64,000 nucleotides of DNA, taken from assembly GCF_001645125.1 (NCBI RefSeq), contig NZ_LXKA01000011.1, positions 124,001 through 188,000 on the forward strand, written 5' to 3'. The notes under the pieces are model-generated. The model searched no databases. It had not been told where the DNA came from and was given only the letters and a program-made list of their open reading frames with translations. Positions 2,754-26,476 of the stretch are shown in pieces. A program made the position numbers and the translations under genes. Source of the stretch: Paraburkholderia ginsengiterrae. Lineage in GTDB: Bacteria; Pseudomonadota; Gammaproteobacteria; Burkholderiales; Burkholderiaceae. Within the stretch, counting starts at the first letter, position 1; every line of letters begins with the position of its first letter.

Positions 2754-5612
2754 TCAGCTGCGTGGCACACCTTCCTCCACCAGCACTGCTATCGGCATCG
2801 AGCCCAACGCGTCGCGCAAATATAACAGGCCGTTCTCATCGATCTTCGGTGCCGCGGGACTCAGCCAGTCGAACAACGCTCTGGCCGACAGATCCGCCGG
2901 CATTTCCACCGCGGTGTCCCCCCAGGCCTGCGGATCGATCATCGGCACATCGCTGTTCCCGCCGAGCAGACCGGCAGCGAGCCGGCTTGCCACCACCACC
3001 GCCCACGCATTGCCGTGCCGCCGCGCGAACGCGATCGCATGCGGTGCATGCGCGCCGCGCACGACAAGCGGCAAGTACACGCTCTGACTCAGCAACTCCG
3101 GCAAATACGTTCGCAGCGCGAGTACGCGCTGGATGACCGCGAGCTTCACGCGGCCATCGCGCCAGCCCGGCAGATAATCCGACGGCGGCGTTTGCACGAG
3201 CCACGCGTCGCGTTTCGCGAAATCGACGGGCCGGCGATTGTCCGGATCCACCAGGCTGAAGTCCCACAATTCGGTGCCTTGATAAAGATCGGGAATCCCA
3301 GGCGATGCCAGTCGCAACACCGTCTGCTGCAAGCTATTGAGCGCGCCGGCAGGGCCAATTCGCTCGACGAACGCGGACAACACCTCAAGGAATCCGTCGC
3401 GCCGCTGCGGCGCCAGGATGTCGAACAGGAAGTCGCGGCAGCCGGCCTCATACGCTTCGTCGGGCGCGAGCCAGTTGGTCTGCAGTTTTGCTTCGCGCAG
3501 CGCCTTCAGTTGCCATTGCGCGACGCGCTCGGCCAGGTCCTTCACGCCCGCTGCGTCGTCCGGTTTCAGATCCGGCGGCCAGCAGCCCACCAGTGTCTGA
3601 TACAGCATCGCTTCGGCGGCGGGACCGGGTGCCCAGTCGTAGCCCCTGTCCTGACCAACGCTGCTGACCGGCTTGCCATCCAGCGCACGGCGATGCGGCG
3701 CATTCAACGTGGACCACGCGCGCAAGGTCGCGCCCCAGTCCTGGGCGATCTCGCTCAACACGGCGAGCCGCGCGCGCACGTCTTCGCCGCGTTTGTGATC
3801 GTGCGTGGCCGTGGCGAGCATGGCGTGCGGGAAGTGTTGCGAGCGCTCCAGATTCGCCGCGTGAAACTGCTCGACGGAGAGCGCGAATTCGCTCGGGTCC
3901 GAGCCGACTTCATTGCGCGACAACAGTCGGCCGTAGCGATAGCACGCGGTGTCCTCCACCGCCTTCGCGGCGACCGGCGCGGTCAACTGGGAAAACAGCG
4001 TTTGCGCCGTGCGTCGCGAGGAACCGGCATGGTTCGGCGGCGCGCTATTCTGGCCTTGTTGGGCCGCCGCGCCGTTTCGTCCGGCCGGCGCTTCTTCGGC
4101 GCTGTCGCCGAGCCACGCGTTCACGAGATCGAGCGTGGCATGGTCGGCGCGCGAGAGCGAGTGACGAGCGCCCGCCAGCGCCTGATCGAAGTAGAGGTTG
4201 TCCGTGGTGCTGCGCAAACCGTTCTGCGGATAGATTCGATACACCGGAAAATGCACGACCAGTTCGATCAGCACCCGCCGCAGCGTGGTGAAGGTGAAGT
4301 CGCGCGTGGTTAGCGAGTCGCGTGCGATGCGATGCAACGCACGCGCCGCGCGGTCCAGTTCCGCGGGGAAGTTTTCCGCGAGCATCTTGCGGCGCGCGGC
4401 AAGGCACTCGCCTTCGAAGCGCGGGCTGCGGCCGGTGAGTTCGGTCCACGTCTGCGCGAGCGGCTCGGCGCCGTCCGGATCGTGCAGCAGCGCACCCACG
4501 TCGTTCATGAAATCGTAGCCGGTCGTGCCGTCCACGGGCCAATCGTCGCGCAGCGGTTCGTCACGGCCAAGAATCTTTTCCACTACGACATACGGCGCGG
4601 TGTCGCGCAGTTCAGTGAGACGCTGCCTCAAGCGCTGACAGTATTCGCGCGGCTCGGCGAGGCCGTCGATGTGATCGATCCGCAAGCCGTCCACCACGCC
4701 CTCCTGATACAGACGGAAAGGCAGTGCATGCACGGCCTCGAACACCTCGGGCCGTTCCACGCGCACGCCCGCGAGCGCTGAAATATCGAAGAAACGCCGC
4801 CAGTTCAGTTCGTCCGACGCGGTGCGCCACCATGCCAGGCGGAAATGCTGCCGCTCGATCAGCCGGTGCAGGCGGTCGCGCGTCACCGGCTCGTGCGGCG
4901 AATACGCCTGCAGCGCGAACTCGATCGCCGGGCCGCCGTTTTGCGCGACGAATTCGCGCAGCATCTCGCGTCCTTCCGCGGCGCGCGGCTGATCGGCAGG
5001 CTGCGTCGTGACCCCTTGAAAGCGCTCGGCGAGCGCGTTGAGATCGGCACGGTCGGCGCTTTGCAGAATCGACGCGTAGTCGATCGGGCACACTGGGAAC
5101 ACATGCGGTCCGTAGCCGATATAAAAACGCCCTGTGTCGCCAGCGAAATGCAGCGCGATGCGGCCCGCCGCGAGTTCCTCGCCGTACGGCGCGCCGAGCG
5201 TCGGCTGCAGCACCTTGCCGCGCAAGGCCGGATCGGGCGAATGCCAGTCCACGTCGAAATGCCGCGCATACGCGCTGTGACGGCCCCATTCGAGGATATC
5301 GAGCCACCACGCGTTGCTCGAGCCGCCGACGCCCATGTGGTTCGGCACGATGTCTACGATCAAGCCCATGCCGTGCACGCGCAGTTGATCGGCGAGGCGC
5401 TTCAGGCCCGCCTCGCCGCCGCATTCGGCGCTGACCTGGGTGTAGTCGACGGTATCGTAGCCGTGCGTCGATCCTGGCTCCGCAGTCGTAATGGGCGACG
5501 TGTACAGATGGCTGATGCCGAGCGCGGCGAAATAGCCGACGTGCTTCGCGGCGTCGTCGAACGTGAAGCCTCGATGGAACTGGAGGCGCAGCGTGGAGCG
5601 TGGGACGGTCAT
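2754..5612 (-). CDS. treY: Malto-oligosyltrehalose synthase
   Basis: This GH13 enzyme converts the reducing-end alpha-1,4 bond of malto-oligosaccharides to alpha,alpha-1,1, giving the substrate for TreZ. The motifs are in order: DIVPNHMGVGG (about 87-97), GLRIDHIDGL with nucleophile Asp313, VVVEKILGRDEPL with acid Glu345, and ATHDHKRGED (about 607-616). At 952 residues it is longer than many TreY proteins. Part of the excess is a low-complexity Gly/Ala/Gln/Asn stretch at about 503-538. Its ATG overlaps the malQ stop as ATGA (5609-5612), so it is probably translationally coupled. It is the last gene of the seven-gene glucan/trehalose run. Confidence 0.96.
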   Translation of the reverse strand: MTVPRSTLRLQFHRGFTFDDAAKHVGYFAALGISHLYTSPITTAEPGSTHGYDTVDYTQVSAECGGEAGLKRLADQLRVHGMGLIVDIVPNHMGVGGSSNAWWLDILEWGRHSAYARHFDVDWHSPDPALRGKVLQPTLGAPYGEELAAGRIALHFAGDTGRFYIGYGPHVFPVCPIDYASILQSADRADLNALAERFQGVTTQPADQPRAAEGREMLREFVAQNGGPAIEFALQAYSPHEPVTRDRLHRLIERQHFRLAWWRTASDELNWRRFFDISALAGVRVERPEVFEAVHALPFRLYQEGVVDGLRIDHIDGLAEPREYCQRLRQRLTELRDTAPYVVVEKILGRDEPLRDDWPVDGTTGYDFMNDVGALLHDPDGAEPLAQTWTELTGRSPRFEGECLAARRKMLAENFPAELDRAARALHRIARDSLTTRDFTFTTLRRVLIELVVHFPVYRIYPQNGLRSTTDNLYFDQALAGARHSLSRADHATLDLVNAWLGDSAEEAPAGRNGAAAQQGQNSAPPNHAGSSRRTAQTLFSQLTAPVAAKAVEDTACYRYGRLLSRNEVGSDPSEFALSVEQFHAANLERSQHFPHAMLATATHDHKRGEDVRARLAVLSEIAQDWGATLRAWSTLNAPHRRALDGKPVSSVGQDRGYDWAPGPAAEAMLYQTLVGCWPPDLKPDDAAGVKDLAERVAQWQLKALREAKLQTNWLAPDEAYEAGCRDFLFDILAPQRRDGFLEVLSAFVERIGPAGALNSLQQTVLRLASPGIPDLYQGTELWDFSLVDPDNRRPVDFAKRDAWLVQTPPSDYLPGWRDGRVKLAVIQRVLALRTYLPELLSQSVYLPLVVRGAHAPHAIAFARRHGNAWAVVVASRLAAGLLGGNSDVPMIDPQAWGDTAVEMPADLSARALFDWLSPAAPKIDENGLLYLRDALGSMPIAVLVEEGVPRS

Positions 5613-7813
5613 GGCGTATCAGGCTCTGAAGAAGCGTTGGAAGCCGCCGCCGATGCGGAAGCGTGGCGCGCGCGATCGACCGCGAGCAGGCGGTCGCAGA
5701 AGCTGTCGTTGTCGAACAGCTCGCCAACCGGCAAGGCCACGCGGCGGCGCCAGTTCGGATGCTCGTCGATCGAGCCGGGCAGATTGGGTTGCTCGACCTG
5801 GGCGAGCAGATCCTCCAGCGGAAATGTCACCAGCGGTCCGGGCGTGGCGGCGACGAAGGCCAGCGCCTCGTCCACGGGCGCGCTCTCCGGCGGCGGCGCG
5901 TCGACACCTGGCGCGGCTACTCCGGCTTGCTGGAATGCGCGCCATAGCTCGGCACGGTCCCGCGCGCGTTCCTGCTGGGCGACTTCTTCGGGATCGCGGC
6001 CGTCGGCACGCGCCATGGTCTGGCCGATCCTGTTGCGCCAGCTAATGTCGCTGCCGCGCCACCAGCCGGCCACGGTGGGCAGATCGTGCGTGGTCGTGGT
6101 GCCGACCGCATGGCGGTCCCATTGCTGCGGCGGCTTGAAACCGCTGCCGCCGTACGCGCCTTCGAACCACAGCACGCGAATCCCGGCGAGGCCATGGTCG
6201 TCGAGCCGCTCGCGAAAGCCGGGTGGCACGGTGCCGAGGTCCTCGCCGATCACGATCGCGCGATGCCGCCACGATTCGAGCGCGATCAGCCGCAGCAGGT
6301 CTTCGAGCGGATAGCGCAGGTAGGCGCCATGCCGTGCGCTTTGACCTTCGGGCACGAGCCATAGCCGCCGCAAGCCGAGAATGTGATCGATGCGCACGCC
6401 GCCCGCATGCGCGAACGCCGCCCGCAGCATGTCGATGAAGGCGGTAAATCCCTGCGTGCGCATGGCGCGCGGCGAGAAGGTGGTCAGCCCCCACGCCTGG
6501 CCGGCCTGATTGAACAGATCGGGCGGCGCCCCGACTGACACGCCTTGCAGCATGTCGTCGCGATACGACCACGCGTGACTGCCGGCGCTATCGCAGCCCA
6601 CCGCGAGATCGGCGATCAGGCCGACGGCCATGCCGGCATCGCGCGCCGCGTACTGTGCGTGCGACAGTCCCTTGGCGGCGAGCCATTGCAGAAACAGATG
6701 AAACGCGACTTCGTGGCCGTTGGCCTCGGCAAAGGCTTCGACTTCCGGGCTGCGCGGATCGCGCAACGCGTCGGGCCAGTTGCGCCAGTGTCCGTTGCCG
6801 CCTTGTGCGAGTTGAGCGGCCTGTAGCGCTTCGAAACGCGCGTGGTCTTCGAGCGCGCGTCCAGCGCGTTCACAGAAGCCGTGAAATTCCAGCGCGCGTG
6901 GCGTGTCCAGCGCGCGTTCCTGCGTGCAGAAGCGCTCGTACAGCGTGCGCAAGACCTTCAGCTTCAGCACGACGGCGTTCGGCCAGTCGATCAACGGCAA
7001 GTCTTCGAACGCCGACCAGGCATGCGTGGCCCGCGCGGTATCGAGCGCCGCGTGCAGCGCATCGCCGCCGAACACGGCGGCGGGATCGATATGCGTGACG
7101 TTCAGCCACAAGCGCGACGACGGCGAATACGGACTGAAGCGGTTCGGTTCCGCGCTGAACATGGCGTGGGTCGGACTGACGGCGAGCGCATGCGCGCCAC
7201 GCTTCGCGCTTTCGATCGCGAATTGTGCGAGCGCCGAATAATCGCCGATGCCGCCGTCACCAGTGCGGCGCAGACCGTACAACTGCGCGGCGATGCCCCA
7301 CAGCGGAGGCGCGGACGCGGCGCTGCCGGCCTCGTTGTTGTGCAGCGTGCGCCAGGCATCGGCGATGGTGTAGCAGCGCGACGGCGCCACCGCGAGCGTC
7401 ACATGCTGGTCGTTGATCACAAGCGTGTGATAACCGGGTTCGTCGATCGGTGCGAGCAGGGCTTCTTCGCCTTTGGGCGCGGTAAAGCGGCCGTCGATGA
7501 TCGAGCCGCTTTCGAGGTCGATCCGATAATGGCTTCCCGATTTGATCGCGGCGGCCGGCAACGCAATGCCGCGGCCGATTTCCGCGGTCATCAGCGGCGG
7601 CAGTTTGCGGCCTGACAATTCGGCGTCCAGAGCGGCCGCGCTGTGCCGGATCTGCGTGGCATTGCCGCACGGCAAACCCATCTGTTCGAGCAGCACGGAC
7701 AGCGTGCTCTCAGGCACGTGCTGCGTGGTGTGGTGGGCGTCCTGCCACTCCACCTCGAAGCCCGCGCGCGCGGCGAGCGTGACGATCGTGTCATTGGAGT
7801 GTCGGGTAGTCAC
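5609..7813 (-). CDS. malQ: 4-alpha-glucanotransferase (amylomaltase)
   Basis: This GH77 disproportionating enzyme transfers maltosyl and longer units between alpha-1,4-glucans. The visible motifs are GGVRIDHILGLRRLWLVPEG (nucleophile Asp), VIGEDLGTVPPG (acid Glu) and TTTHDLPTVAGWW (third Asp). An N-terminal extension before the catalytic barrel is present, as in the long bacterial MalQ type, and the length is 734 residues. I chose GTG at 7811-7813, whose bases overlap the treZ stop as GTGA. The frame stays open further upstream, but that extension is Arg-rich and unlike the family. In this operon it would trim or extend the chains used by TreY. Confidence 0.94.
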   Translation of the reverse strand: MTTRHSNDTIVTLAARAGFEVEWQDAHHTTQHVPESTLSVLLEQMGLPCGNATQIRHSAAALDAELSGRKLPPLMTAEIGRGIALPAAAIKSGSHYRIDLESGSIIDGRFTAPKGEEALLAPIDEPGYHTLVINDQHVTLAVAPSRCYTIADAWRTLHNNEAGSAASAPPLWGIAAQLYGLRRTGDGGIGDYSALAQFAIESAKRGAHALAVSPTHAMFSAEPNRFSPYSPSSRLWLNVTHIDPAAVFGGDALHAALDTARATHAWSAFEDLPLIDWPNAVVLKLKVLRTLYERFCTQERALDTPRALEFHGFCERAGRALEDHARFEALQAAQLAQGGNGHWRNWPDALRDPRSPEVEAFAEANGHEVAFHLFLQWLAAKGLSHAQYAARDAGMAVGLIADLAVGCDSAGSHAWSYRDDMLQGVSVGAPPDLFNQAGQAWGLTTFSPRAMRTQGFTAFIDMLRAAFAHAGGVRIDHILGLRRLWLVPEGQSARHGAYLRYPLEDLLRLIALESWRHRAIVIGEDLGTVPPGFRERLDDHGLAGIRVLWFEGAYGGSGFKPPQQWDRHAVGTTTTHDLPTVAGWWRGSDISWRNRIGQTMARADGRDPEEVAQQERARDRAELWRAFQQAGVAAPGVDAPPPESAPVDEALAFVAATPGPLVTFPLEDLLAQVEQPNLPGSIDEHPNWRRRVALPVGELFDNDSFCDRLLAVDRARHASASAAASNASSEPDTP

Positions 7814-9732
7814 GCGCGGTGCTCCTGGTGTCCCACGATGCGGGCATCGTGGCCGATGGCATAGCCGCCGACGTCGCCGGTCAGCCACGCGACGAACGCA
7901 TACGGCGGCAAAGTCTTGAGTTCGATCTGATCGCGCACGCGCGGCGGCGTTTCGAAAATCACTTTGCCGGCGGGAATCTCGGCGAGCATGACACTCTCCT
8001 TCGAGAGATTCAGCGCGGCCGACAACGTCTCACCGTCGCCCAGTTTCCAGCGGGCAATCAGCGCATTGGCGTCGCCCCCGTTGGCCCCGCTCAGCACCGT
8101 CACGCCGCAGGCCTTGCCATGTTTCAGGCGTGGCGTAATCAGCTTGGCGCGCACGGCTAGCGCGGACTTGTAGAAGTGCATCCAGTCGAGGCGGTCTTTC
8201 GCTTCATCTTCGTCGAGCCTGGATGTGTCATCCGGCCCAGGCGGCGATGACGCGCCGAACGTCTTCACGTCGTTAGGATCGGGAATCTGCGCGCGTTGCT
8301 TCTCGTCGCTGAACGCCGAAAAGCGTGCGAATTCGCGCCGTCGTCCTTCGCGCACCGCATCGGCGAGATCGCCGGTGTGGTCCGTGAAAAACAGGAAGGG
8401 TTGCGTCGAGCCATATTCCTCGTCCATGAACAGCAGCGGAATTTGCGGCGACAGCAAGAGCAGGGCGGTGGCGGCGCGCAACGCATCATCCGAAGTGAGC
8501 TTTCGAAGGCGTTCGCCGAACGCGCGATTGCCGATCTGATCGTGGTTCTGCAGGAACATCACGAACGATGCAGGCGGCAAATGCCCGCTCGCTTCGCCGC
8601 GTGGCCGGCCGTCGTGAATCGGCGACGGGTCGCCCTGATACGCAAAGCCTTCCGACAGCACGCGCGCGAGGCGCCGGATCGGCTGCTCCTCGTAGGCGTG
8701 GTAATAGCCCTCCGTTTCGCCGGTAAGCAGCACGTGCAGCGTGTTGTGCGCGTCGTCGTTCCATTGCGCGTCGAAGTGCGTGTCCAGCAGGCTCGCGCTG
8801 TTGTGCTCGTTTTCCAGCACCAGATGCACATGCCGTCCATGCTGCACCCTCGCGCGAATATGGTCGGACAATTCGCGCAGCCACGCATGATTGCCAATGG
8901 CGTGCACGGCGTCGAAGCGCAGCCCGTCGAGACGATATTCGTTGATCCAGTAGACGGCGTTATCCGTGAAGAAGTCGCTGACTTCACTGCGCTCGAAATC
9001 GATCGCCTGGCCCCACGGCGTGTGCGTGCTTTCGCGGAAAAACGGGCGCGCGTACTGGTAAAGATAATTGCCGTCCGGGCCGAAGTGGTTGTAGACCACG
9101 TCGAGAAACACCATCAAGCCGAGACCGTGGGCGGCGTCGATCAGCGCTTTCAGTTCCTCGGGGCGGCCGTAGGCGGAATCGGGCGCAAATGGCAGGACGC
9201 CGTCGTAGCCCCAATTGTGCCGGCCCGGGAAATCCGCCAGCGGCATCAACTCGATGGCGGTCACGCCGAGTGCGGCGAGAGTCGGCAAGCGCTTCTGCAC
9301 GCCTGCATATCCGCCCATCGCGCCCACGTGAAGTTCGTACAGCACCGTTTCTTCCCAGGGCCGGCCGTGCCAGGTGGTCTGCTCCCAACGGTACGCGCGC
9401 GGGTCGATCACTTCACTCGGTCCATGCACGTCCTGGGGCTGAAAGCGCGACGCCGGATCGGGCACCGCCTGCCCGCCGTCCAGCCGGTAGCGGTACAGCG
9501 TGCCCGCGCCGGTGTTGACGGCGGCTTCGAACCAGCCGTTGCCGGCTGGCGTCATGCCGTGCGCGCCTTGAGCCGGCCCGTTTTCGATGACCACCTCGAC
9601 CTGCTTGCACGAAGGCGCCCAGAAGCGAAACCGCGTGCACGGATTCGCGCCTGCCGCGCCGAGCAGTTGCGCGCCGAAGGGCAGGCAATGCGCGTGATGA
9701 TGCGCATGAGGATCAATCGGGCTTTCGGACAT
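7810..9732 (-). CDS. treZ: Malto-oligosyltrehalose trehalohydrolase
   Basis: It releases trehalose from maltooligosyl-trehalose made by TreY. The 640-residue protein has an N-terminal early-set/CBM48-like domain (about 30-120, FRFWAPSCKQVEVVIENG). The GH13 barrel follows with FLDVVYNHFGPDGNYL, GLRFDAVHAI (nucleophile), LVLENEHN (acid) and FLQNHDQIGNRAFG. The residues MSESPIDPHAHHHAHCLPFG at the start include a short His cluster. The stop codon overlaps the malQ start. It lies 82 bases after glgX. Confidence 0.96.
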   Translation of the reverse strand: MSESPIDPHAHHHAHCLPFGAQLLGAAGANPCTRFRFWAPSCKQVEVVIENGPAQGAHGMTPAGNGWFEAAVNTGAGTLYRYRLDGGQAVPDPASRFQPQDVHGPSEVIDPRAYRWEQTTWHGRPWEETVLYELHVGAMGGYAGVQKRLPTLAALGVTAIELMPLADFPGRHNWGYDGVLPFAPDSAYGRPEELKALIDAAHGLGLMVFLDVVYNHFGPDGNYLYQYARPFFRESTHTPWGQAIDFERSEVSDFFTDNAVYWINEYRLDGLRFDAVHAIGNHAWLRELSDHIRARVQHGRHVHLVLENEHNSASLLDTHFDAQWNDDAHNTLHVLLTGETEGYYHAYEEQPIRRLARVLSEGFAYQGDPSPIHDGRPRGEASGHLPPASFVMFLQNHDQIGNRAFGERLRKLTSDDALRAATALLLLSPQIPLLFMDEEYGSTQPFLFFTDHTGDLADAVREGRRREFARFSAFSDEKQRAQIPDPNDVKTFGASSPPGPDDTSRLDEDEAKDRLDWMHFYKSALAVRAKLITPRLKHGKACGVTVLSGANGGDANALIARWKLGDGETLSAALNLSKESVMLAEIPAGKVIFETPPRVRDQIELKTLPPYAFVAWLTGDVGGYAIGHDARIVGHQEHRA

Positions 9733-9814: not shown

Positions 9815-12034
9815 CTATGTCGACGGCGACGTATCGCTGCTGGGCGGATGCTCGCCCGGATCGGGCGGCAGCGCAGTCAGAAGCCGCGGCCCGTGCTGCG
9901 CACCGGCCTTCCAGCCCGCCTGCCAGTCGGCTTCGCCTACCGGTTGCGCGGCCAGCATCACGAGGCCATGTGCGGCCACTTCGACCTCGGGAACCGCCAG
10001 CGCATGGGGCGCGCTTTCCGGTTCAGCCGTGTCCAACAGCACGTGCCATTCCAGATGCGGCGCGGGCGGCGTAAAGCGCAGCATGTCCTCATTGGCGTTG
10101 AGCATCATTAACAATACTTCGGTTTCGCCGTTTAAGCCTGGTCCGGCGCGCCGCAGTGTGAACGCGCGGCCTTCCGGGTCCTGCCAGGCTTCGATGGTGA
10201 GCGGGTCGCCGTTTTCGTCGAACCAGCCCACATCGAACAGGCCCGGCAACACTTCGCGGTCGCCGAACAGAAAGCGCGTTTCGCGCAGCAGCGGATGGGC
10301 TTTGCGCAGCGCGATCACTCGCGCGACGAACTCGGTCATCTGGCGGCTGTCCGGCGATTCTGCATGCTCCCAGTCGAGCCATGACATTTCGTTGTCCTGG
10401 CAATAGGCATTGTTGTTTCCGTTCTGCGTCCGCAGCGATTCATCGCCTGCCAGGATCATCGGTGTGCCGAGCGCCATCAGCAGCGTGGCGATCAGCGAAC
10501 GGGCCACGCGTTGGCGGGTGGCGAGAATCGCGGGGTCGGCGCTCGTGCCTTCGGCGCCCCAGTTGCGGCTGCAATTTTCATTGTGGCCGTCGTTGTTGTC
10601 TTCTCCGTTGTTTTCGTTGTGTTTCTGCTCGTATGCCGTCATGTCGGCGAGCGTAAAACCGTCATGTGACGTCACAAAATTGACGGAGGCCCACGGCTTC
10701 CTGAAGCGCCGGTTGAACAGGTCGGCCGAACCCGTCAGACGAGCGGCGAGGTCGGGGCGCAAGCCCGCGTCGCCACGCCAGAAGCGGCGCACGGTGTCGC
10801 GGAAACGGTCGTTCCATTCCGCGAATCCCGGCGGATGATTGCCCAGCTGATAGCCGCCAGGCCCGATATCCCACGGCTCGGAGATCAGCTTGCGCTGCGA
10901 CAGGATCGGGTCCTGGCGGATCGCGTCGAAGAAGCCGGAACCCGGATCGAAACCATGCTGCTCGCGCCCGAGGGTGACGCCGAGATCGAAGCGGAAGCCG
11001 TCGATATTGAACGCCGTCGACCAGTAGCGCAGCGAATCCATCACCATCTGCAACACGCGGGGATGCTGCAGATTCACGGTGTTGCCGCAGCCGGTGTCGT
11101 TGATATGGTGGCGCTCGTCGCCCGGGATCAGCCGGTAATAACTGGCGTTGTCGAGGCCGCGCCACGAGACCGTCGGTCCCATCTCGTTGCCTTCGCAGGT
11201 GTGGTTGTAGACCACGTCGAGAATGACTTCGATGCCGGCCGCGTGCAACTGGCGCACGGCAATGCGCATTTCGTCGAGCCGGTGCGTGCTCAGGTACGAA
11301 GGCTCCGGCGCGAAAAACGCCGCCGTGTTGTAACCCCAGTAGTTGCGCAGGCCGCGCTCCACCAGAAAGCGGTCGTTGAGAAACGCGTGCACGGGCAGCA
11401 GTTCGACGGCGGTCACACCGAGTTTCAACAGACGCTCGATGAAGTCCGGCGAAGCCAGCGCCGCGAACGTGCCGCGCTCGTGCTGGCGCAAATCGGTGCG
11501 CAGCATCGAGGCGCCCCGCACATGCGTCTCGTAGACGATGGTGTCGCCCCACGGCACGTTCGGGCGTTTGTCGTGCGACCAGTCGAAGGCTTCGTCGACC
11601 ACGACGCACTTCGGCATGGCCGGCGCCGAATCGCGCCGGTCGATGGACAGGTCAGCGCGATTCGAGTGCACGCGATAACCGAACAGCGCATCCGACCAGC
11701 GAAACTGTCCGACCAGTTTGCGCGCATACGGATCGAGCAGCAGCTTGTGCGGGTTGAAGCGCTGCCCGTGCTGTGGCTGATACGGTCCGTGCGCACGAAA
11801 GCCATACGCGGTCCCCGGATGCGCGTTAGGCAGGTAGCCGTGCCAGACTTCGTCGGTGCATTCAGGCAGCGTGAAGCGGCGAATCTCCTTTCGGCCGGCG
11901 GGATCGAACAGGCAGAGTTCGATTTTCTGCGCGTTCGCCGAGAACACCGCGAAGTTGACGCCGAGGCCGTCCCACCTTGCACCGAGCGGATAGGGCAAGC
12001 CCGGCAAAAGCCGGTCGGGCAACGCATGCGACAT
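9815..12034 (-). CDS. glgX: Glycogen debranching enzyme GlgX (isoamylase type)
   Basis: It hydrolyses alpha-1,6 branches, probably yielding linear maltodextrins for TreY/TreZ and MalQ. The protein has 739 residues with a CBM48 domain at the N-terminus (WDGLGVNFAVFSANAQKIEL). The GH13_11 barrel has ILDVVYNHTCEGNEMGP, GFRFDLGVTLG (nucleophile), LISEPWDIGPGGYQLG (acid) and FVTSHDGFTLADM. The length is at the upper end for the family (about 650-740). It is separated by 82 bases from treZ and 105 bases from glgB, which are the only real gaps in the run. Confidence 0.96.
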   Translation of the reverse strand: MSHALPDRLLPGLPYPLGARWDGLGVNFAVFSANAQKIELCLFDPAGRKEIRRFTLPECTDEVWHGYLPNAHPGTAYGFRAHGPYQPQHGQRFNPHKLLLDPYARKLVGQFRWSDALFGYRVHSNRADLSIDRRDSAPAMPKCVVVDEAFDWSHDKRPNVPWGDTIVYETHVRGASMLRTDLRQHERGTFAALASPDFIERLLKLGVTAVELLPVHAFLNDRFLVERGLRNYWGYNTAAFFAPEPSYLSTHRLDEMRIAVRQLHAAGIEVILDVVYNHTCEGNEMGPTVSWRGLDNASYYRLIPGDERHHINDTGCGNTVNLQHPRVLQMVMDSLRYWSTAFNIDGFRFDLGVTLGREQHGFDPGSGFFDAIRQDPILSQRKLISEPWDIGPGGYQLGNHPPGFAEWNDRFRDTVRRFWRGDAGLRPDLAARLTGSADLFNRRFRKPWASVNFVTSHDGFTLADMTAYEQKHNENNGEDNNDGHNENCSRNWGAEGTSADPAILATRQRVARSLIATLLMALGTPMILAGDESLRTQNGNNNAYCQDNEMSWLDWEHAESPDSRQMTEFVARVIALRKAHPLLRETRFLFGDREVLPGLFDVGWFDENGDPLTIEAWQDPEGRAFTLRRAGPGLNGETEVLLMMLNANEDMLRFTPPAPHLEWHVLLDTAEPESAPHALAVPEVEVAAHGLVMLAAQPVGEADWQAGWKAGAQHGPRLLTALPPDPGEHPPSSDTSPST

Positions 12035-12139: not shown

Positions 12140-14342
12140 TCATTCCGCGCGCAATACGATCGTCGCCAGCGGCGGCAGCGTCAGCGCAGCCGAATGCGGC
12201 CAGCCGTGACTCGACATGGGTTCGGTATGGATCAAGCCGCCGTTTCCCATATTCGAGCCCCCGTACACGCTGGCGTCCGTATTCAGCACCTCGGCCCAGC
12301 GTCCGCCGCGCGGCATGCCGATCCGGTACCCCACTCTCGGCACCGGCGTCATGTTGCAGACCACGACGAGTTCGCGGCCGGCGCCGTCGGTGCGGCGATA
12401 GGCGAATACGCTGTTGCCGTTGTCGTCGCCGATCAGCCAGTCGAAGCCGCCCGGTTCGCAGTCGAGCAGGTAGAGCGCGGGCTCTTCGTGGTACAGACGG
12501 TTCAGATCGCGCACCAGTTTCTGCACGCCGTGATGGTTCGAGTCGTCGAGCAGATGCCAATGCGGCGACGCGTCGTGGTTGAATTCCGCCATCTGGCCGA
12601 ATTCTCCGCCCATGAACAGCAGCTTCTTGCCAGGATGCGTCCACATGAAACCGAAGTAGGCGCGCAGATTGGCAAAGCGCTGCCAGGTGTCGCCTGGCAT
12701 CTTGCCGAGCAGCGAGCCTTTGCCGTGCACCACTTCGTCGTGCGAAAGCGGCAGCACGAAACGCTCCGAGTAGGCGTACACCATCCCGAAGGTCATATTG
12801 TGGTGATGGTATCGGCGGTGGATCGCATCCTCTTGCATGTAGTGCAGCGTGTCGTGCATCCAGCCCATGTTCCATTTGAACTGGAAGCCGAGACCGCCGC
12901 TTTCGAGGGGCGCCGTCACGCCCGGCCACGCCGTCGATTCCTCCGCGATCGTGATCGCGCCCGGCACGCCGGGCACATAGCCGACTTCGTGATTCAGGCG
13001 TTTCAGGAACGCGATCGATTCGAGGTTCTCGCGGCCGCCGTAGATGTTCGGCACCCACTCGCCGGCGGCGCGCGAATAGTCGCGATACAGCATCGACGCC
13101 ACCGCGTCCACGCGCAAACCGTCGACGTGATAGCGCTTCAGCCACGCCAGCCCCGAGGCGATCAGGAACGCGCTCACCTCGTGGCGGCCGAGGTTGTAGA
13201 TCATCGTGTTCCAATCCTGGTGATAGCCTTCGCGCGGGTCCGCGTGTTCGTAGAGCGGCGTGCCGTCGAAGTCCACCAAGCCATGCGCGTCGTTCGGAAA
13301 GTGCGCGGGCACCCAGTCGAGAATCACGCCGAGTCCGGCTTCGTGCGCCCTGTCGACGAAGTGCGCGAACTGCTCGGGTTTGCCGAAGCGCGCGGACGGC
13401 GCGAACTGTCCAAGCGGCTGATATCCCCACGATCCGCCGAACGGATGCTCCGCAATCGGCATGAACTCCACGTGCGTGAAGCCCATGCCTTTCACGTACG
13501 GAATCAGCCGCTCCGCAAGCTCTTCCCAATCGAGTCCGCGCTGCCCTTCCTCCGCGATACGCAGCCAGGATTCGGCGTGCACCTCGTAGATGGAGATCGG
13601 AGCGCGCGCGGTTTGTTTATCGGCGCGCGACTCGATCCACGCGTGATCGCTCCACGGAAACTGCTCGACTTCATCGACATGCGCCACCACCGATGCCGTG
13701 CCCGGCGGCTTTTCCGTCTGCATCGCGCAGGGATCGGCCTTCAGGGGCAGCGGGTGGCCATCGCGCGAAAGCAGTTCGTATTTGTAGCGCGTGCCCGGAC
13801 CGACGCGCGGCACGAACAACTCCCACACGCCGGCCTGATGACGCAGCCGCATGGGATGACGGCGGCCGTCCCACGCATTGAAGTCGCCCACCACCGAGAC
13901 GCGCCGCGCATTCGGCGCCCACACGGCGAAGCGCACGCCGGGTATGCCGTCCACGTCCATCGGACGCGCACCGAGGCATTCGAGCACCGCATAGGGATCG
14001 CCGCCCGCGAGACGGCCGAGCGGCTCGTCGCCGAGTATAGGGCCAAACGAATAGGTGTCCTCGATTTCCTGCACAACGCCATGCCAGTCGATCCGCAAGC
14101 GATACGGCGCCGCGGACGTGACGCGTCCTGCAAAGAGGCCGGGCCGCAACTGCTCGAGTTCGCCCAGCATCGAACCGTTGGCGCGCGAGATCACGCTGAC
14201 GTGCGCGGCATTCGGCAGCAGCGCGCGCACCACCGGACCAGCGTCGGTCTGATGGAGCCCGAGCTGAGAAAAAGGATCGGGATGGCGCGCTTCGACGAGG
14301 GCGTCGATTTCGAGCGGTTGGAGGCCGATGGCCGGATCATGC

Positions 14343-14350
<8 letters not shown>
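12140..14350 (-). CDS. glgB: 1,4-alpha-glucan branching enzyme
   Basis: It introduces alpha-1,6 branches into the linear glucan made by GlgE. The 736 residues include an N-terminal beta-sandwich, a CBM48 domain (about 120-210, [20 protein letters not shown]), and a GH13_9 barrel with [28 protein letters not shown] (nucleophile), [14 protein letters not shown] (acid) and [14 protein letters not shown]. The ATG at 14348-14350 lies inside the last codons of the treS fusion gene (8-base overlap) and gives [14 protein letters not shown]. An upstream in-frame start is possible but would deepen the overlap. Confidence 0.97.
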
Positions 14351-17803
<3,453 letters not shown>

Positions 17804-17807
<4 letters not shown>

Positions 17808-20800
17808 GTCCCACCTTCCATTGGAGTTTGGTAGCCAGCGTCTGCGTGAAGGGCGCCATTGGTGCCGCCGTCGGCTTCATCCGGCCGTTCGGCGGGCAGG
17901 CCGCCGAGCGGCGCGAGGCGCCAGATCGAGAAGGGCTGGTCCGAGGCGAGCTGTATGTGCTGCCAGCGGTCATGCCATTCGAAGCGCGCGCCGGTCATCT
18001 GGTCGACGACTTCCAGCGCGCTGTGATCGTGCAGATTCCATCGCTGGAACGTGTCCGACGATAGTTCGATATCCGCGCCCTGTTCGTTGAACGGGTCGAG
18101 ATTGATGGCGACAACTATGACGTTGTCGCGCGATTCGGTTGCTTTTTCGAAGAACAGAATATGGTCGTTGTGCGCGGGCAGAAACGTCAGGCCGAGATGC
18201 GTTTGCAGCGCCGGATTCGCACGGCGGATCCGGTTCAGCGCAGTGATCTCGCCGACGATATTGCCGGGCCGGTTCCAGTCCCACGCGCGTAACTGATACT
18301 TCTCGGAGTCGAGATATTCCTCGCTGTTGGGCAGCGCGGCCGCTTCGCAAAGCTCGAAACCGCTATACACGCCCCACAAGCCGGCCAGCGTCGAAGCAAG
18401 GGCCGCGCGAATCAGAAAGCCCGCGCGCCCTTGCGACTGCAAATGGCGCGGATTGATGTCCGGCGTATTGACGAAAAAGTTCGGGCGATAGAAATCACGC
18501 GCGCCGGTCTGCGTGAGCTCGCTCATGTATTCGATGAAATCGCGCTTCGACTCGCGCCACGTGAAATACGTGTAGGACTGCGAGAAGCCGATCTTGCCGA
18601 GGCGATTCATCATGCGCGGGCGCGTGAAGGCTTCGGCGAGGAAAATCGTCTCGGGGTGGCGCGCGCGCACATCGGCGATCACCCATTCCCAGAATGGCAG
18701 CGGTTTGGTGTGCGGGTTGTCGATGCGGAAAATATGCACGCCCGCTGCGATCCAGAACAGAAATACGTCGCGCAGCGCGAGCCACAAATCGGGCTTGGCG
18801 TCGTGCGCATAAAAGTCGGGATTGACGATGTCCTGATACTTCTTCGGTGGATTTTCCGCATAGCGCAGCGTGCCGTCGGGTCGCCACGCAAACCACGTCG
18901 GATGTTCCTTGAGCCAGGGGTGATCCGGCGAGCACTGCACGGCGAAATCGAGGGCGATCTCGAGGCCATGCGCTTGCGCGGCGGCAAGCATCGCCTTGAA
19001 GTCGTCGAGCGTGCCCAGTTGCGGATGCACGGCGGTGTGGCCGCCCTCCGCCCCGCCGATCGCGTACGGACTGCCGACGTCGCCCGGCTGCGCGTTCAGC
19101 GCGTTATTGCGGCCTTTGCGATTCGCGAGGCCGATCGGATGAATCGGCGGGAAGTACAGCACGTCAAAACCCATGTCGCGGATGCGCGGCAGTTTCGTCG
19201 TGACATCCGCGAAGGTGCCGTGGCGCGTTTCGTCGTCGCTCATCGAACGCGGGAAGATCTCGTACCAACTCGCGAAGCGCCCGGCGGTCCGATCGACGTC
19301 AAGCTTGTAGATGACCGGATCGCGGCTCAGGGAGGGCCGGTGGCGCGCGGCGGTCATCGCGCTGGCCGTGGCCGGCGCGAGGAGAATGGCGAGCTTGGCT
19401 TGCGCGTCGGACTTGGTGAACGTCTTGACGATCTGTTCGAGCGGTTTCGTCGCGGCGCCGTCGGCGGTCTCTACTTCGGCGAGCACCAGCGCGAACAGAT
19501 GCGCGGCTTCGTCGAGTTCGAGCTCGACGGTCTGATTCGCTTTCAGCTTCTTCTGGACATGCTCCACCAGCGAGGCGAAGTCATCGCGCCACGCGATCAC
19601 GGTGAACTCGTGACGGCCCACGCGTTCGAGCGGAATGCGCGCATGCCAGAGGTCGAGGCCGGCGGGTGGTGCAGGCGTCATCAGCACTTCGTGCCAGGCG
19701 GTTTCGTCGGCGGCGCGCCAGATTACGGCGGCGGCGATTTTGTCGTGGCCTTCGGCGAAGATCGCGGCGCTGATCTCGACCCGCTCGCCCACGGCGCGCT
19801 TGGCCGGGAAAGCGCCGTGATCGACGGAAGGCGTCACGCTTTCGATTGCCACACGCGGCGCGTTGATCGCGTCGAGCACGCTCTTGTGACCGCTGCGCGT
19901 CGAGTTCGCCTTGTCGATAGGTGGTGCAAGGCAGACCGGCTTTTCCGCGGACGCATGGAACAGGCTGACGGCGCCAGGCGCGAGCGTGAACGGTGCAAGT
20001 GAGGCGGGCTCGGTGCTGGCCGGCGCGTCGAGCTGCACGAAACGGGTGAAATTGCCGGGCACGCCCGCAAGGAAGCGCGCGGGATCGACGCGCACCGGCG
20101 TGCTGAGTTCAGGGTTGATGGCGATCAGAAGCGCTTCGTCGGCGGTACGCAAGTCGGGCTGATTAGCGCGCAGCAGGACCGCCGCGGCTGCGCCGGGCCC
20201 GCTGAGCGAGCGCAATTCTCCGTTGGCGTACAGCACGTTGCTGTTGTGCGCGGCGGCGTTCGCCTGCTTGATGGGCGCCGAGAGATCGAATCGCTTCGCT
20301 TGAACGGCAAGCGAGAACTGCGATGCGTCGCCGCGCGTTTGCGACATCGGCTCGGTGATGCCGTATTCGAAACCCATCGGCATCATCCAGCCCGTGCCGA
20401 TGGCGGCGGACGTGAAGAGCGCGCGCCGGTACGCCCGTTCCACGATGGCGGCGTCGTGGGCATCGCTTAGCTCGGCGGCCAGACGTGTGCCGTAAGGGGC
20501 TTCGGGAAACGCGATGGGCGCGCCGATGCGCGCGAGCGCGGCGTGCTCTTCGGCCATCCAGGTCGCGCGGAAGTCCCACCAGCGCACCGAGGAGAACGCA
20601 CTGTCGAAGCCCGCGCCTTCCAGCCCGGCCAGGTCGCCACGCGCGAGGCCGGGGGTAGCGGCTAGCAGGCGCGCGCCAGGGTGCTTTGCGCGCACGGCGT
20701 CGCCCAGCTGCCGCCAGACGGCTGCGGGCACGCGATGCGGTGAATCGAAGCGGAAGCCGCCCACGCCGGCTTCGGCGAGCGCCAGCAGGTGCCGCGTCCA

Positions 20801-21256
20801 CCAGCCGGTCAACGCGGCGCGGCTGCCGGCATCATTGAAGTTCGCATACGCGACGTTGTCTTCGCGATGCACATGGCGCGGATCGAGCCGCGCCTCGTCC
20901 GATTCGAAGGCATGGAACCAGTCGGCGTGCTCGGCATAGAGCGCGCCGTCGGCGGCCATCCGGTCGATCACCAGATCGACCAGCAAGGTCAAGCCATGCT
21001 GACGGGCGGTGCTCGCAAGCGTGCGTATCGTGTCGGCCGCCGGTTGCCGGGCTCCGAACACAGGATGCAGCCGGGCATGGTTGCCGACCACCTGGCCGTG
21101 GCCCGCCTGCCCGGGCTCGAACAGGTTGCCGATCAGCGCGTGATCGAAGCCCAGCGCGGCGGCGTGCGCGAACTGCGCAGGCCATGCGTCGAGCGGCCCA
21201 ACCAGAAGTGAATGAAGAAAGTAAATCCGCGGCGCGTACCCGTTTGGAGATTCCAT
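17804..21256 (-). CDS. glgE: Alpha-1,4-glucan:maltose-1-phosphate maltosyltransferase with an additional N-terminal GH13-like domain
   Basis: GlgE extends alpha-1,4-glucan using maltose 1-phosphate. Residues about 465-575 are the DUF3416 beta domain (VTPSVDHGAFPAKRAVGE). Residues about 650-1000 are the GH13_3 barrel with Asp846 (HIFRIDNPH), Glu875 (FLAEAFTRP) and Asp933 (FFVNTPD). A C-terminal beta domain follows. Typical GlgE proteins are about 650-700 residues, and this one has 1150. The extra residues 1-440 form a second GlgE-like barrel. It keeps GVGGFRFDSPHR (Asp171) but has LLAATPG where the acid Glu motif should be. That half is probably non-catalytic. It heads the seven-gene run and has no glgA or glgC nearby. 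Confidence 0.93.
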
Positions 21257-21720
21257 CGGTCGTTTCCAGATTCGTCCTGCTGCGGTGTGGATGCAGTTGG
21301 CATGCGATCACAGCGCTCATTGAGCTTCCAGAGCCGGCAACCGCGCAATGCACGAAGCAATGGCGCGTACTGGTCAATGTAGTGCAAAGATCGTCGCCCC
21401 GCTGGCCAGTAAGGGGTGATTTGACGCCATGCGTTGCTGGAACGGGCTGATCAGAGCGACTCATTAGCCGCAGCAAACGCTGTGCCAGTGCGGTTCGGCG
21501 TGGCGTCATGCCGGGTTGAGCCGGCGCGCCAGGGTGCGCTTGGCGGACGATGTCGAGGGATGGATGCGCCGGCGTGCGCGAGGAGGGATGCGCGGCGGTA
21601 GGCGGCGCGGCATGTAAAACAGGCCGGCAGCGTCCGGGTTTTACATGCCGCGCGCAAAGACTGGGGCGGTGATCGTGAAAACCGGCGCTCTATGCGCCCA
21701 GAATCATGATGTCAGCCATG
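21257..21720. other. 464-base gene-free region between glgE and the DUF1345 gene
   Basis: This stretch should hold the promoter of the glgE operon (minus) and the 3' end of the DUF1345 transcript. I find no strong -35/-10 pair. The only clear structure is the 16-bp inverted repeat at 21605-21653, annotated separately. Short open frames here have no family resemblance. Confidence 0.6.
21605..21653. repeat. Perfect 16-bp inverted repeat (hairpin)
   Basis: The arm GCGCGGCATGTAAAAC (21605-21620) is exactly complementary to 21638-21653. The 17-base loop can itself pair CCGG with CCGG. No T-run follows on either strand, so it is not a canonical intrinsic terminator. It lies about 68 bases beyond the DUF1345 stop codon and could serve as a 3' stabilising hairpin, an operator or a repeat-family member. 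Confidence 0.75.
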
Positions 21721-22383
21721 TTACGAGCCTACCAGGCCCGCTGCGATATTCACGCACAAGCCGAGTACGGCGACGTTGAAGTAGAACGAGAGAATGGATT
21801 GTGCGAGCGCGGCGCGGCGAATCGAGCGCGAGCGCAGCACCACGTCCGACGTTTGCGAGGCGACCGCGATGGTGAACGAGAAGTACATGAAATCCCAGTA
21901 GTTCGGCTGGAGCTTGTGGTCGGGAAACAGCAACGGTGTTTCCGTAGCATCGGTGTCGTAGTAAAGCCGGGCGTAATGCTGCGTGAAGATAGTCGGAATC
22001 ATGAACCAGGCGCCGATCATCGTGAGCCCGGTGAGCGTGTAGTGCCACACGGTGGAAGCGCCGGCCGTGCCCTTCGCCGAGGCCAGTTCCAGCACGATCG
22101 CGGCAAGACTCGCCACGGTTGCCACGCAGATCAGCATGAGCACCACGCCTGCATTCTCATCGTCGCGGCGGGCGAAGTCACGTACGCGGCTTTCGTCGGC
22201 GGTGGCCATGTGCACCCAGATCAGAACCAGAAAGCTCCACACGGCGGCGTCCCAGCCGACCAGTCCACGGGCCATCGGACGCGTGTGTTCGGGCACGGCG
22301 AGGGCAGCGGCAAGGCCGAATATCAGGCCGATCACCATGCGCGGCCGGTTGCGAAGAATCTGCGGATAGTATTTTGTGAGCAT
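21721..22383 (-). CDS. DUF1345 family integral membrane protein
   Basis: The 220-residue protein has about five hydrophobic segments (near residues 15-32, 45-60, 80-100, 115-135 and 195-215). It carries the DUF1345 features [13 protein letters not shown] and a following [20 protein letters not shown] stretch. The family resembles the pore region of ion channels, but its function is not established. It should sit in the inner membrane. It is monocistronic as far as can be seen, and its upstream neighbour, the glucose dehydrogenase operon, is divergent. Confidence 0.88.
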
Positions 22384-22732
22384 GGTTTGTCGTGTGGAGG
22401 ACTCTCAGTGTCGCGGATTCTACCCGCGCCTCGACCACCATTTGTCGAATCGGGTGGTCACAGGCTATAGTCTTTCGCAACGCCCTTGCGTGCCGCTTTC
22501 AGTTGAAAGGCGATTGGCAGGCGGCAGGTATTTTTCGCAGTGCGTGCCATGCGGCACATGCGATTTCATATGAGTGTCATCGGCACAGCATAAGGCGGCG
22601 CGCACCCGTATCGCGCCGGCTCACAAGACCGCTCGAGCGGCGTCAGACCAGGTTTGGGGTAGAGATCCATGCAACGCGAACGGCTACGCCACCGCATTGC
22701 AAGTTGAGAATGACTCACCATCTGGAGTCCCC
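22384..22732. other. 349-base divergent intergenic region
   Basis: The region separates the DUF1345 gene (minus) from the glucose dehydrogenase operon (plus). It contains a candidate plus-strand promoter at 22442-22471 and a long leader of about 250 bases before the gamma subunit start. I found no clear riboswitch or repeat in it. Confidence 0.5.
22442..22471 (+). promoter_or_regulatory. Candidate promoter of the glucose dehydrogenase operon
   Basis: TTGTCG (22442-22447) and TATAGT (22466-22471) are separated by 18 bases. A transcript from here would have a leader of about 255 bases. Confidence 0.4.
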
Positions 22733-23326
22733 ATGACAGATGTTCGAGAGAACAACCCTGCGCACCACGAAGTGACGCATTCGGCCGAGCCGCCGCCGTT
22801 TGTTTCATTCTCCTCATCGCGCAGAACCTGGGTGCTTGGCGCATGCGCCGCAGCCGCGGCACTTGCGTTTGCCGGAACCGGTCGCCCATTCTCGTGGATC
22901 ACGCCGGCCTTCGCCGACGCACCCGCAGGCGGCGGACTCGACGCGTTCCTTGCACTCTCGCAACGCCTCACCGGCCGCACGGGCTTCGACGCTACGCTCG
23001 GCAAGCGTGTCTATACGGCCCTCGCCATATCCGACAGCCAGTTCACGCAGAACGTCGCCGCGCTCAACACGTGGCTGCAAGGCCATGGCGGCGTGCCGTC
23101 CGATACCGTCACGCAGGCCTTGCAGGTCGACCAGCCCGCGCTCGCGAAGTCCGTGAGCGCGATCATGCGCGCGTGGTATCTCGGCCTCGTCGGAGACATG
23201 CCGCACGTGGAAGTGGTCGCGTATGAAAAAGCGCTGATGTTCGATCCCGTCAAGGACGTGCTGACGATTCCGTCCTATTGCCGCGACGTGCCGTTCTACT
23301 GGACGAAGAAACCGGTGAGCGCGTGA
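22733..23326 (+). CDS. FAD-dependent glucose dehydrogenase gamma (small, Tat-exported) subunit
   Basis: The 197-residue protein matches the small-subunit family of membrane-bound sugar dehydrogenases. A twin-arginine signal is near residue 30 (SSRRTWVLGACAAAAALAFA), followed by a helical domain ending in YCRDVPFYWTKKP. In the Burkholderia cepacia enzyme the gamma subunit acts as a hitch-hiker chaperone that carries the signal-less catalytic alpha subunit through the Tat pore. Here too the next gene lacks a signal. I chose the ATG at 22733, preceded by GGAG, because an in-frame extension to 22574 has no ribosome site and would bury the Tat signal. Confidence 0.88.
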   Translation: MTDVRENNPAHHEVTHSAEPPPFVSFSSSRRTWVLGACAAAAALAFAGTGRPFSWITPAFADAPAGGGLDAFLALSQRLTGRTGFDATLGKRVYTALAISDSQFTQNVAALNTWLQGHGGVPSDTVTQALQVDQPALAKSVSAIMRAWYLGLVGDMPHVEVVAYEKALMFDPVKDVLTIPSYCRDVPFYWTKKPVSA

Positions 23327-23430
23327 ACGGCATGCCTCTCGCGCGTGCCGCATCGCTCGATTGAATGACGTGGCGAGGCATCGACGCGCGAGTACCGCAA
23401 GCAACGATATGCCAGTCGAAGAGGGCAACA

Positions 23431-25032: not shown

Positions 25033-25051
25033 GCCGCCACGGAGAGCCACC

Positions 25052-26476
25052 ATGACGAAGAACACCTCTCGCGTGCAACCGGCCGATGCGCTGATGCGGC
25101 AAGCGCGCCGCCATCCCTTCAGGGTCGCGACGCTGGCGGCGGCTTTTTCGCTGTTTGCGCTCTATGTCGCCTGGCACGAGGCACACGGCCCCGGCGCGCG
25201 GCATAACGATGAGCTGCCCATCCTCCAGGCTCGCGCGGACGACAATGCACAACCGGCCGATGGCGCGGCAATGCCCGCTGCCGCGGCCGGCGGCGATCTG
25301 GTCAAGCGCGGCGAGTACCTTGCACGCGCCGGCGACTGCGTGGCCTGCCACACGGCCGACAAAGCCCGTCCTTACGCGGGCGGTCTGCAGATCAACACGC
25401 CGTTCGGCACTATCGTGACGCCGAACATCACGCCGAACCCCGACACCGGCATCGGCCGATGGAACGATGCCGATTTTCTGCGCGCGATGCATGAAGGCAT
25501 CGGCAAGAGCGGTGAGCGGCTTTATCCGGCGTTCCCGTATGCGGAGTACACCAAGGTCACCGATCAGGACGTGCTGGCCATTCGCGCGTACCTGAATACG
25601 CTCACGCCGATCCACTACGCACCGCCGGCCAACAGCCTGAAATTCCCGTTCAACCAGCGCTGGCTGATGGTGTTCTGGAATCTGTTCAATTTCACCGAGG
25701 GCCGCTTTGTGCCCGATCCCAAGCAAAGCGCCGAGTGGAATCGCGGCGCGTATCTGGTGGAGGGACTCGCGCATTGCGAGGAGTGTCATACGCCGCGTAA
25801 TTTCATGCAGGGGCTGAAGTCGAGTTCGCGTTTTTCAGGCGAGGTGCAAGCCGGGTGGCACGCCTACAACATCACACCGGACAAGAACAGCGGCGTGGGC
25901 AACTGGAGCGACGACGAACTGGTGTCGTACCTGTCGACCGGCGCTGCGCCTGGCCGGGCCAATGCAGCCGGTCCGATGGCCGAAGTGGTGAGCGACAGCA
26001 CGCAATACCTGACGCATGAGGACCTCGGTTCGATCGTCAAGTATTTGCGCACGGTGCCGGCGGTCAGCGGCGGCGAAGTGCGCGCGCGCGATCAATGGGG
26101 CCATCCCGCCGACGCCGTTACGGCGCTTCGCGGCACCGCGATCACGGGGGTGAACGGTGCGCAACTGTTCGTGGCCAATTGCGCGACGTGCCACAACTGG
26201 ACGGGCCAGGGCGTGGGCGCGAGCGCACCGGGTGCGTATCCCTCGCTGATTCACAACTCGGCGGTGGGCGCGGGCGACGCCAACAATCTGACGATGGTGA
26301 TCCTGCACGGCGTCAGCCGTACGACCAAGGATGCGGATGTGTTGATGCCCGCCTTCGGCAACGAACTCACCGACGAGCAGGTGGCCGCCATCACCAACTA
26401 CGTGACCCAGCAGTTCGGCAATCCGCAGTCGACCGTGACGGCCGACCAGGTTGCCAAATTGCGGACTCAGCAATAG
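25052..26476 (+). CDS. Triheme cytochrome c subunit (beta) of the glucose dehydrogenase complex
   Basis: Three CxxCH sites are visible: CVACH (96-100), CEECH (242-246) and CATCH (377-381). The 474-residue protein begins with an uncleaved-anchor-like segment (about 25-41, ATLAAAFSLFALYVAW). In the characterised family it takes electrons from the alpha subunit's Fe-S cluster and passes them to quinone or other acceptors at the periplasmic face. Distal Met ligands probably lie after each heme. It is the last gene of a gamma-alpha-beta operon that ends in a hairpin at 26492. Confidence 0.92.
   Translation: MTKNTSRVQPADALMRQARRHPFRVATLAAAFSLFALYVAWHEAHGPGARHNDELPILQARADDNAQPADGAAMPAAAAGGDLVKRGEYLARAGDCVACHTADKARPYAGGLQINTPFGTIVTPNITPNPDTGIGRWNDADFLRAMHEGIGKSGERLYPAFPYAEYTKVTDQDVLAIRAYLNTLTPIHYAPPANSLKFPFNQRWLMVFWNLFNFTEGRFVPDPKQSAEWNRGAYLVEGLAHCEECHTPRNFMQGLKSSSRFSGEVQAGWHAYNITPDKNSGVGNWSDDELVSYLSTGAAPGRANAAGPMAEVVSDSTQYLTHEDLGSIVKYLRTVPAVSGGEVRARDQWGHPADAVTALRGTAITGVNGAQLFVANCATCHNWTGQGVGASAPGAYPSLIHNSAVGAGDANNLTMVILHGVSRTTKDADVLMPAFGNELTDEQVAAITNYVTQQFGNPQSTVTADQVAKLRTQQ

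Follow-up and report, generated by a model that had tools for sequence, protein, structure and literature searches.

A close described counterpart of the protein discussed here is GlgE of Streptomyces coelicolor. Passages of a study of that enzyme (PMC5076824) describe how Trp448 stacks on the +3 sugar, how W448A and W448E variants are nearly inactive, and how replacing Arg449 by Ala raises the Km 14-fold. According to the same passages, malto-oligosaccharide is bound at Trp448/Arg449 in the catalytically disabled D394A enzyme, and apparently in E423A too. Also described is a remote secondary site, disruption of which lowers polymer kcat/Km 31-fold with maltohexaose little changed, growth and product of S. 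coelicolor being unaffected. Here we consider a GlgE gene in a stretch of 64,000 nucleotides from Paraburkholderia ginsengiterrae (contig NZ_LXKA01000011.1, positions 124,001 to 188,000; the window), which encodes a complete GlgE with a further module, residues 1-440, in front of it (the N-module). We lean towards the view that the N-module is a catalytically dead GH13 module, kept as a glucan-binding module that would aid polymer elongation by GlgE.

Residues 467-1150 have the features of a GlgE. The family for domains N and S (GlgE_dom_N_S, PF11896; residues 467-656), GLGE_C (1025-1107) and Alpha-amylase all exceed their Pfam cut-offs there, and the three catalytic motifs are in place as FRID (843-846), LAEAF (873-877) and NTPD (930-933). 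PF11896 was not found in residues 1-440, domain N/S occurring only at 467-656. As a single sequence these residues reach the cut-off of no Pfam or NCBIfam family, and the best Pfam matches below cut-off are hDGE_amylase and Alpha-amylase. A blastp comparison of the N-terminal half with the protein's own GlgE half gave E = 3e-11, with 25% over 204 residues. When a 25-row profile of the N-module was compared with the PDB, the best match was S. coelicolor GlgE (3zss; E = 1.5e-26), with positions 12-420 aligned to chain residues 249-672, which comprise the barrel and the C domain. The N-module profile also aligned with that of the GlgE half in hhalign (99.8% probability, E = 4.3e-29, 359 columns). 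Judged by these alignments, the homology of residues 1-440 to a GH13 barrel is more than chance, and a TIM-barrel fold is predicted from the profile homology.

A reading made earlier from the sequence alone (the sequence-only reading) had proposed a second GH13/GlgE-like module before a complete GlgE. The GH13 assignment and the completeness of GlgE (residues 467-1107) hold, but the module is not an extra GlgE. In a tree built from 29 N-modules (of 103) and 19 GlgE halves (of 85) the two sets are separated at 100/100, and since the N-modules form a clade of their own apart from the GlgE halves, the N-module is not an additional copy of GlgE. Internal duplication of GlgE was rejected on the same split.

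The loss of catalytic residues was followed in 103 modules, 85 fused and 18 stand-alone (a weaker stand-alone candidate, L275, and the second reading-frame piece of L151 were excluded), and within the taxonomic family in 61 sequences, those of the window and 60 relatives. The motifs first picked out from the sequence were confirmed: FRFD with Asp171 is retained at residues 168-171; LLAATPG (197-203) replaces LAEAF, with A200 at the acid position by alignment; and no third Asp is present, EAPYG (252-256) aligning where intact relatives read ESHDT. Loss of the Glu is fixed in the sampled relatives, with Glu in 0 of 61 family N-modules. The full D-E-D triad occurs in only 10 of the 85 fused modules; the others keep the nucleophile only (33), the Glu only (3), the Glu and third Asp (1) or none of the three (38), so that at least one triad residue is missing in 75. 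Among the 18 stand-alones, 16 have the full triad, and in two the third Asp is out of place by alignment. Most dead modules have given up N13, N43, Y55, N98, H99, W132, D171, Y174, E200, N222, H254 and D255 (letters are the residues of intact modules, invariant or nearly so there, at window positions), which we read as the catalytic motifs and the wall around subsite -1. The region I Asn-His pair is gone. As placed by alignment, residues 1-440 are without the residues for GH13 catalysis, and their catalytic triad is incomplete.

A tree of N-modules was built with the catalytic columns removed and 38 of the 103 rows left out; several dead rows in it have flagged long branches. On this tree 39 dead rows lie on one side of a 100/100 branch, L118 and L119 (Glu kept, both Asp lost) fall apart from the main dead clade, and L268, with a changed nucleophile, is sister to a triad-intact module. 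When GlgE halves served as outgroup, the dead modules of that tree, including L118 and L119, grouped at 88/88. The least number of changes on the N-module tree is seven for Asp171, two for Glu200 and one each for the third His-Asp and for Q237. One module within the dead clade, L148, has Glu at the acid column and sits on a very long branch.

The N-module belongs to a family that also exists as stand-alone proteins, matching the stand-alone L032 at E = 5.4e-40 and sharing with stand-alones the clade that is split from the GlgE halves at 100/100. Stand-alones from the search of the class have frames of 422-505 aa, 30-31% identity and the full triad (FRCD, AETLGC, ESHDT), and glgA is their immediate neighbour in all three loci with open reading frames listed. 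Among named genomes, a scan covering the best 80 of 546 relatives (at least 546 in all) placed stand-alones in Methylococcus, Chromatiaceae, Competibacteraceae, Nitrospirae, Deltaproteobacteria, Lentisphaerae and others. All three motif patterns were matched in 76 of these 80 loci, and 58 of the 80 have a glgA-like frame in the flank (a blastp match to one GlgA at E < 1e-20, anywhere in the flank and on either strand; many flanks end at contig ends). Identity of 40 stand-alones to the window module is 25-30%. Two stand-alones tested exceed the Pfam cut-offs of Alpha-amylase and of hDGE_amylase, which is the glucanotransferase domain of glycogen debranching enzyme; neither of the two reaches an NCBIfam cut-off. 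We know of no activity for this stand-alone family.

Gene context varies further among stand-alones. L273 (G926:C62, 8530-14724) is triad-intact and lies directly before treZ-treY, which adds a third gene context to those of glgA and glgE, and the triad-intact L151 (G694:C62, 6595-10196) immediately precedes a glgE whose reading is split over two frames. The more distant L274 and L276 (frames of 577 and 499 aa) have the Glu and an SHD motif and only the second tryptophan of the pair discussed below. Fused modules with an intact triad came from the phylum search (L140-L144) and the alphaproteobacterial search (L262-L264, L266, L267), with Azospirillum oryzae as a named case; named cases with a dead module are Rhizobium etli CFN 42 (1075 aa) and Burkholderia multivorans (1131 aa). 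No triad-intact paralogue was found in the window's own genome: the N-terminal half as query hit two places, both in the GlgE-fusion gene (11 and 6 of 17 candidates scored), a stand-alone query likewise two places in that gene (4 of 8 candidates scored), and the full protein one place only.

Of 150 genomes of the taxonomic family, 89 carry the module, and GlgE domain N/S occurs in the same 89; all 89 GlgE frames are open and at least 1122 aa long. Of the other 88 module-bearing genomes, 60 were fetched and read (28 were left out), and in each of the 60 one uninterrupted frame of 1122-1473 aa runs from stop to stop. These single frames, and the presence of the module in 89/89 GlgE-bearing genomes, led us to reject a frameshift or an assembly artefact. 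In L065, L097 and L098 the N-module is about 90-100 residues longer than in most between window residues 8 and 446 (525-539 aa), presumably by insertion. Matching plasmid records (n = 159) come from Rhizobium (139), Azospirillum (5), Burkholderia (4), Caballeronia (3), Sinorhizobium (3), Cupriavidus (3), Tistrella (1) and Bosea (1); the window protein matches those of Caballeronia at 54% and of Burkholderia at 47-49%. GlgE was detected in 26 of 240 genomes (G444) that we assign to the Alphaproteobacteria from their place in the phylum and from named relatives, as 13 frames of at least 1010 aa, 11 short ones (674-839 aa) and 2 fragments.

A tree of GlgE halves, from 34 of the 85 fused and 17 unfused GlgEs, groups the halves of dead fusions, except L268, at 96/98. 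The unfused label needs five changes on it, two of them forced by starred branches, and triad-intact fused modules interleave with stand-alones on the trees. Nei-Gojobori dN/dS over 16 pairs of N-modules (14 dead, 2 triad-intact) is 0.03-0.30, which shows that the N-module is under constraint (purifying selection). The two triad-intact pairs gave 0.26 and 0.12, and in five window pairs the dead module has 0.16-0.21 vs 0.09-0.11 in the GlgE half.

Part of what the dead modules have retained could point to a surface for sugar. Among the 61 columns invariant in 26 triad-intact modules, only nine (F37, G167, G203, S223, W226, W227, W233, N333 and L425) are still conserved at 95% or above in 74 dead ones. 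S223 is present in 74 of 74 dead modules and W226, W227 and W233 in 73 each, the sole exception for W226/W227 being L271; all four are present in 61 of 61 family sequences, and they cluster among the retained columns (permutation p = 0.04). By the profile alignment, W226 corresponds to Trp448 of S. coelicolor GlgE and W227 to its Arg449 (chain residues 468/469, the offset of 20 being deduced from the Y..WR motif), and hhalign places the pair on the FTWR motif of GlgE halves. The two placements are not independent because both use profile A2. Two further tryptophans are largely confined to dead modules, Trp152 (20801-20803, minus strand; 57/74 dead vs 1/26 intact) and Trp290 (20387-20389, minus strand; 39/74 vs 0/26), and are possible new contact surfaces.

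The earlier suggestion that the module could bind maltose 1-phosphate fares less well. Passages of a study of Mycobacterium thermoresistibile GlgE (PMC4663749) give N371, Y376 and N414 as phosphate ligands, and N371 and Y376, two of the three, would fit the NPPKKY loop by our reading of the numbering. The PPKK loop was found in 0 of 103 N-modules vs 76 of 85 GlgE halves, and binding of this donor by the N-module is unlikely because its loop is absent. The alternative suggestion, that the module binds long glucans, is favoured by the correspondence of the conserved tryptophan pair to the site at which GlgE holds its acceptor chain, though binding itself is deduced from that correspondence. In the scheme we propose, the N-module is related to a glycogen-linked alpha-amylase-type enzyme, which in other bacteria stands alone and is often encoded near glgA. 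Some lineages carry it joined to GlgE with all three catalytic residues in place; in the window's lineage and in rhizobia the catalytic residues have been lost. The retained tryptophan pair, if exposed, would then hold growing glucan chains, uncut, near the GlgE active site, and this could favour elongation of polymeric over short acceptors. Such an uncut-glucan clamp is reasonable because there are two precedents, the secondary site of S. coelicolor GlgE and plant ISA1/ISA2.

Several observations weigh against this scheme. The clustering of the patch is weak at the p value given above, W233 is as conserved as W226/W227 and is probably a packing residue, and the retained F37, G167, G203, N333 and L425 look structural, so the patch could serve to keep the fold. 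The acid position, Ala in the window, is often Trp elsewhere and may plug the cleft. The unfused GlgEs L126 and L040 nest beside the eroded fused L271 inside the dead clade (95/89), which makes the module dispensable, and in 14 of 16 pairs the N-module has a higher dN/dS than the GlgE half. L271 itself (G441) has a fused frame of 1036 aa with a badly eroded N-module that has lost the tryptophan pair, as if the module were being lost.

The structural residues among the best retained (F, G, G, N and L, five of the nine) would fit the main rival, which we regard as not very probable: a scaffold in which the dead barrel packs on GlgE domain N/S and stabilises or enlarges the dimer, binding no sugar. 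The module directly precedes domain N, domains N and S of S. coelicolor GlgE are described as forming a linear cleft between subunits, and the near confinement of Trp152 to dead modules is what a new interface might produce. GlgEs without the module nevertheless work, those of actinomycetes with solved structures being about 700 aa long and the Pseudomonas enzyme, among the biochemically studied GlgEs, being unfused; a scaffold also leaves aside the tryptophan pair retained at the acceptor position by alignment. Dispensability, erosion in L271 and the faster evolution of the module could mean instead that it is a relic on its way out, without a function of its own. We think this quite unlikely: dN/dS is far under 1 and resembles the values of triad-intact fused modules, the frames are open, and S223, W226, W227 and W233 are unbroken across the family sequences.

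Gene order might suggest another role, as a docking platform for GlgB or TreS-maltokinase that would allow channelling. The GlgE-fusion gene is followed on one strand by genes for TreS-maltokinase, GlgB, GlgX, TreZ, GH77 and TreY, related stand-alones occur near glgA or, in L273, before treZ-treY, and a passage in PMC11046441 states that contact between GlgE and GlgB is unknown. We consider docking unlikely. That the nucleophile is retained, here and in 32 of 61 family members, could indicate that the module is still an enzyme, using Asp171 in an unusual mechanism; the Asp has changed state seven times on the tree, and the acid, the third Asp and the region I pair are gone, and we find this very improbable. 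The glucan-binding module remains our preferred explanation.

The features discussed and the neighbouring genes are collected below. A scan for promoters and terminators in window positions 17500-22000 gave no signal above shuffled sequences. Divergent from the GlgE gene, on the plus strand at 22574-26476, are genes in a row for FAD-SLDH (sorbitol-dehydrogenase-type), a GMC oxidoreductase and a cytochrome c.

Coordinates, in window positions, of the GlgE-fusion gene, its parts and the genes that follow it
Feature	Position	Strand	Remarks
GlgE-fusion gene	21256 down to 17804	minus	ATG start, 1150 aa
N-module, residues 8-440	19937..21235	minus	predicted dead GH13 barrel and C-terminal domain, by homology
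Linker, residues 441-466	19859..19936	minus	Pfam boundary of GlgE half
Complete GlgE, residues 467-1107	17936..19858	minus	catalytic motifs FRID, LAEAF, NTPD
Asp171, nucleophile position	20744..20746	minus	Asp in 32/61 family sequences
Ala200, acid/base Glu position	20657..20659	minus	family (n = 61): W 34, A 17, G 7, S 2, F 1, Glu 0
Pro254-Tyr255	20492..20497	minus	replaces His-Asp (third Asp) of intact relatives, by alignment
S223..W226-W227-D228..W233 patch	20558..20590	minus	kept in dead and intact members; W226/W227 on S. coelicolor GlgE Trp448/Arg449
Glu237	20546..20548	minus	Gln in 26/26 triad-intact, Glu in 72/74 dead; one tree change
TreS-maltokinase fusion	14343..17807	minus	4-base overlap with GlgE gene
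GlgB branching enzyme	12140..14395	minus	start codon as listed mechanically
GlgX debranching enzyme	9815..12034	minus
TreZ	7810..9732	minus
GH77 4-alpha-glucanotransferase	5609..7888	minus	above Pfam cut-off; no NCBIfam model above cut-off
TreY	2754..5612	minus

From the perspective of enzyme evolution, the window protein would combine a known enzyme with a pseudo-enzyme domain whose origin lies in a sister GH13 family. Public records contain the fusion, named as GlgE or maltotransferase, and among the titles and abstract starts listed from the open-licence literature we found no description of the N-module (subscription papers are mostly outside that coverage). We suggest, tentatively and with more doubt than conviction, that an apparently undescribed alpha-amylase-type companion of glucan enzymes became a pseudo-enzyme in the fused lineage, its acceptor side kept and rebuilt as a permanent polymer clamp, and that it would be a fused bacterial counterpart of ISA2, altering the length or branching of GlgE glucan. 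The features that suggest such keeping and rebuilding are the retained tryptophan pair, the change Q237E in 72 of 74 dead modules and the Trp at the acid position in many modules, though the window has Ala there.

About 38% of the window protein is a separate dead enzyme domain, and databases name the GlgEs of this large proteobacterial group as ordinary maltosyltransferases. Stand-alone intact, fused intact, partly changed, fused dead, eroded and unfused forms are all extant today, and therefore the route by which an enzyme became a non-catalytic module can be tested on existing forms, one by one. A module that did clamp glucan would explain how these GlgEs act on polymer and offer a handle on the chain structure of the glucan. 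The stand-alone family with its intact triad is an open target in itself.

Among known systems, S. coelicolor GlgE1 (3zss), which we take to be of subfamily GH13_3, has a barrel and C-terminal domain that can be aligned to the N-module, with a tryptophan at the Trp448 acceptor position; the N-module differs in having no domains N and S, no NPPKKY loop and no triad, and it belongs to a separate clade. The alpha-amylase 3dhu, presumably from Lactobacillus, is the top phmmer match of the N-terminal half alone (E = 2.5e-4) and of the stand-alone L032 (6.4e-23), but the match spans only about the first half of the module and 3dhu is by name a free amylase. The stand-alone GH13 proteins near glgA (Methylococcus capsulatus, Chromatiaceae, Competibacteraceae and others) are of the same family, about 420 aa long, with the same S..WW.....W patch, whereas their triad is intact and they are unfused. 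Azospirillum oryzae and the alphaproteobacterial loci listed above share the fusion architecture of the window and differ in having all three catalytic residues. Plant ISA2 is catalytically dead and, as proposed for the N-module, is a GH13 protein whose part in alpha-glucan synthesis is non-catalytic; in contrast, it is a separate subunit of a debranching complex, belongs to another GH13 subfamily and is not fused to an elongating enzyme. Passages of a study of ISA1/ISA2 (PMC12510319) report that non-catalytic functions affect starch, and that in ISA2 only one outer glucan site is kept or occupied and the central channel is predicted to be closed.

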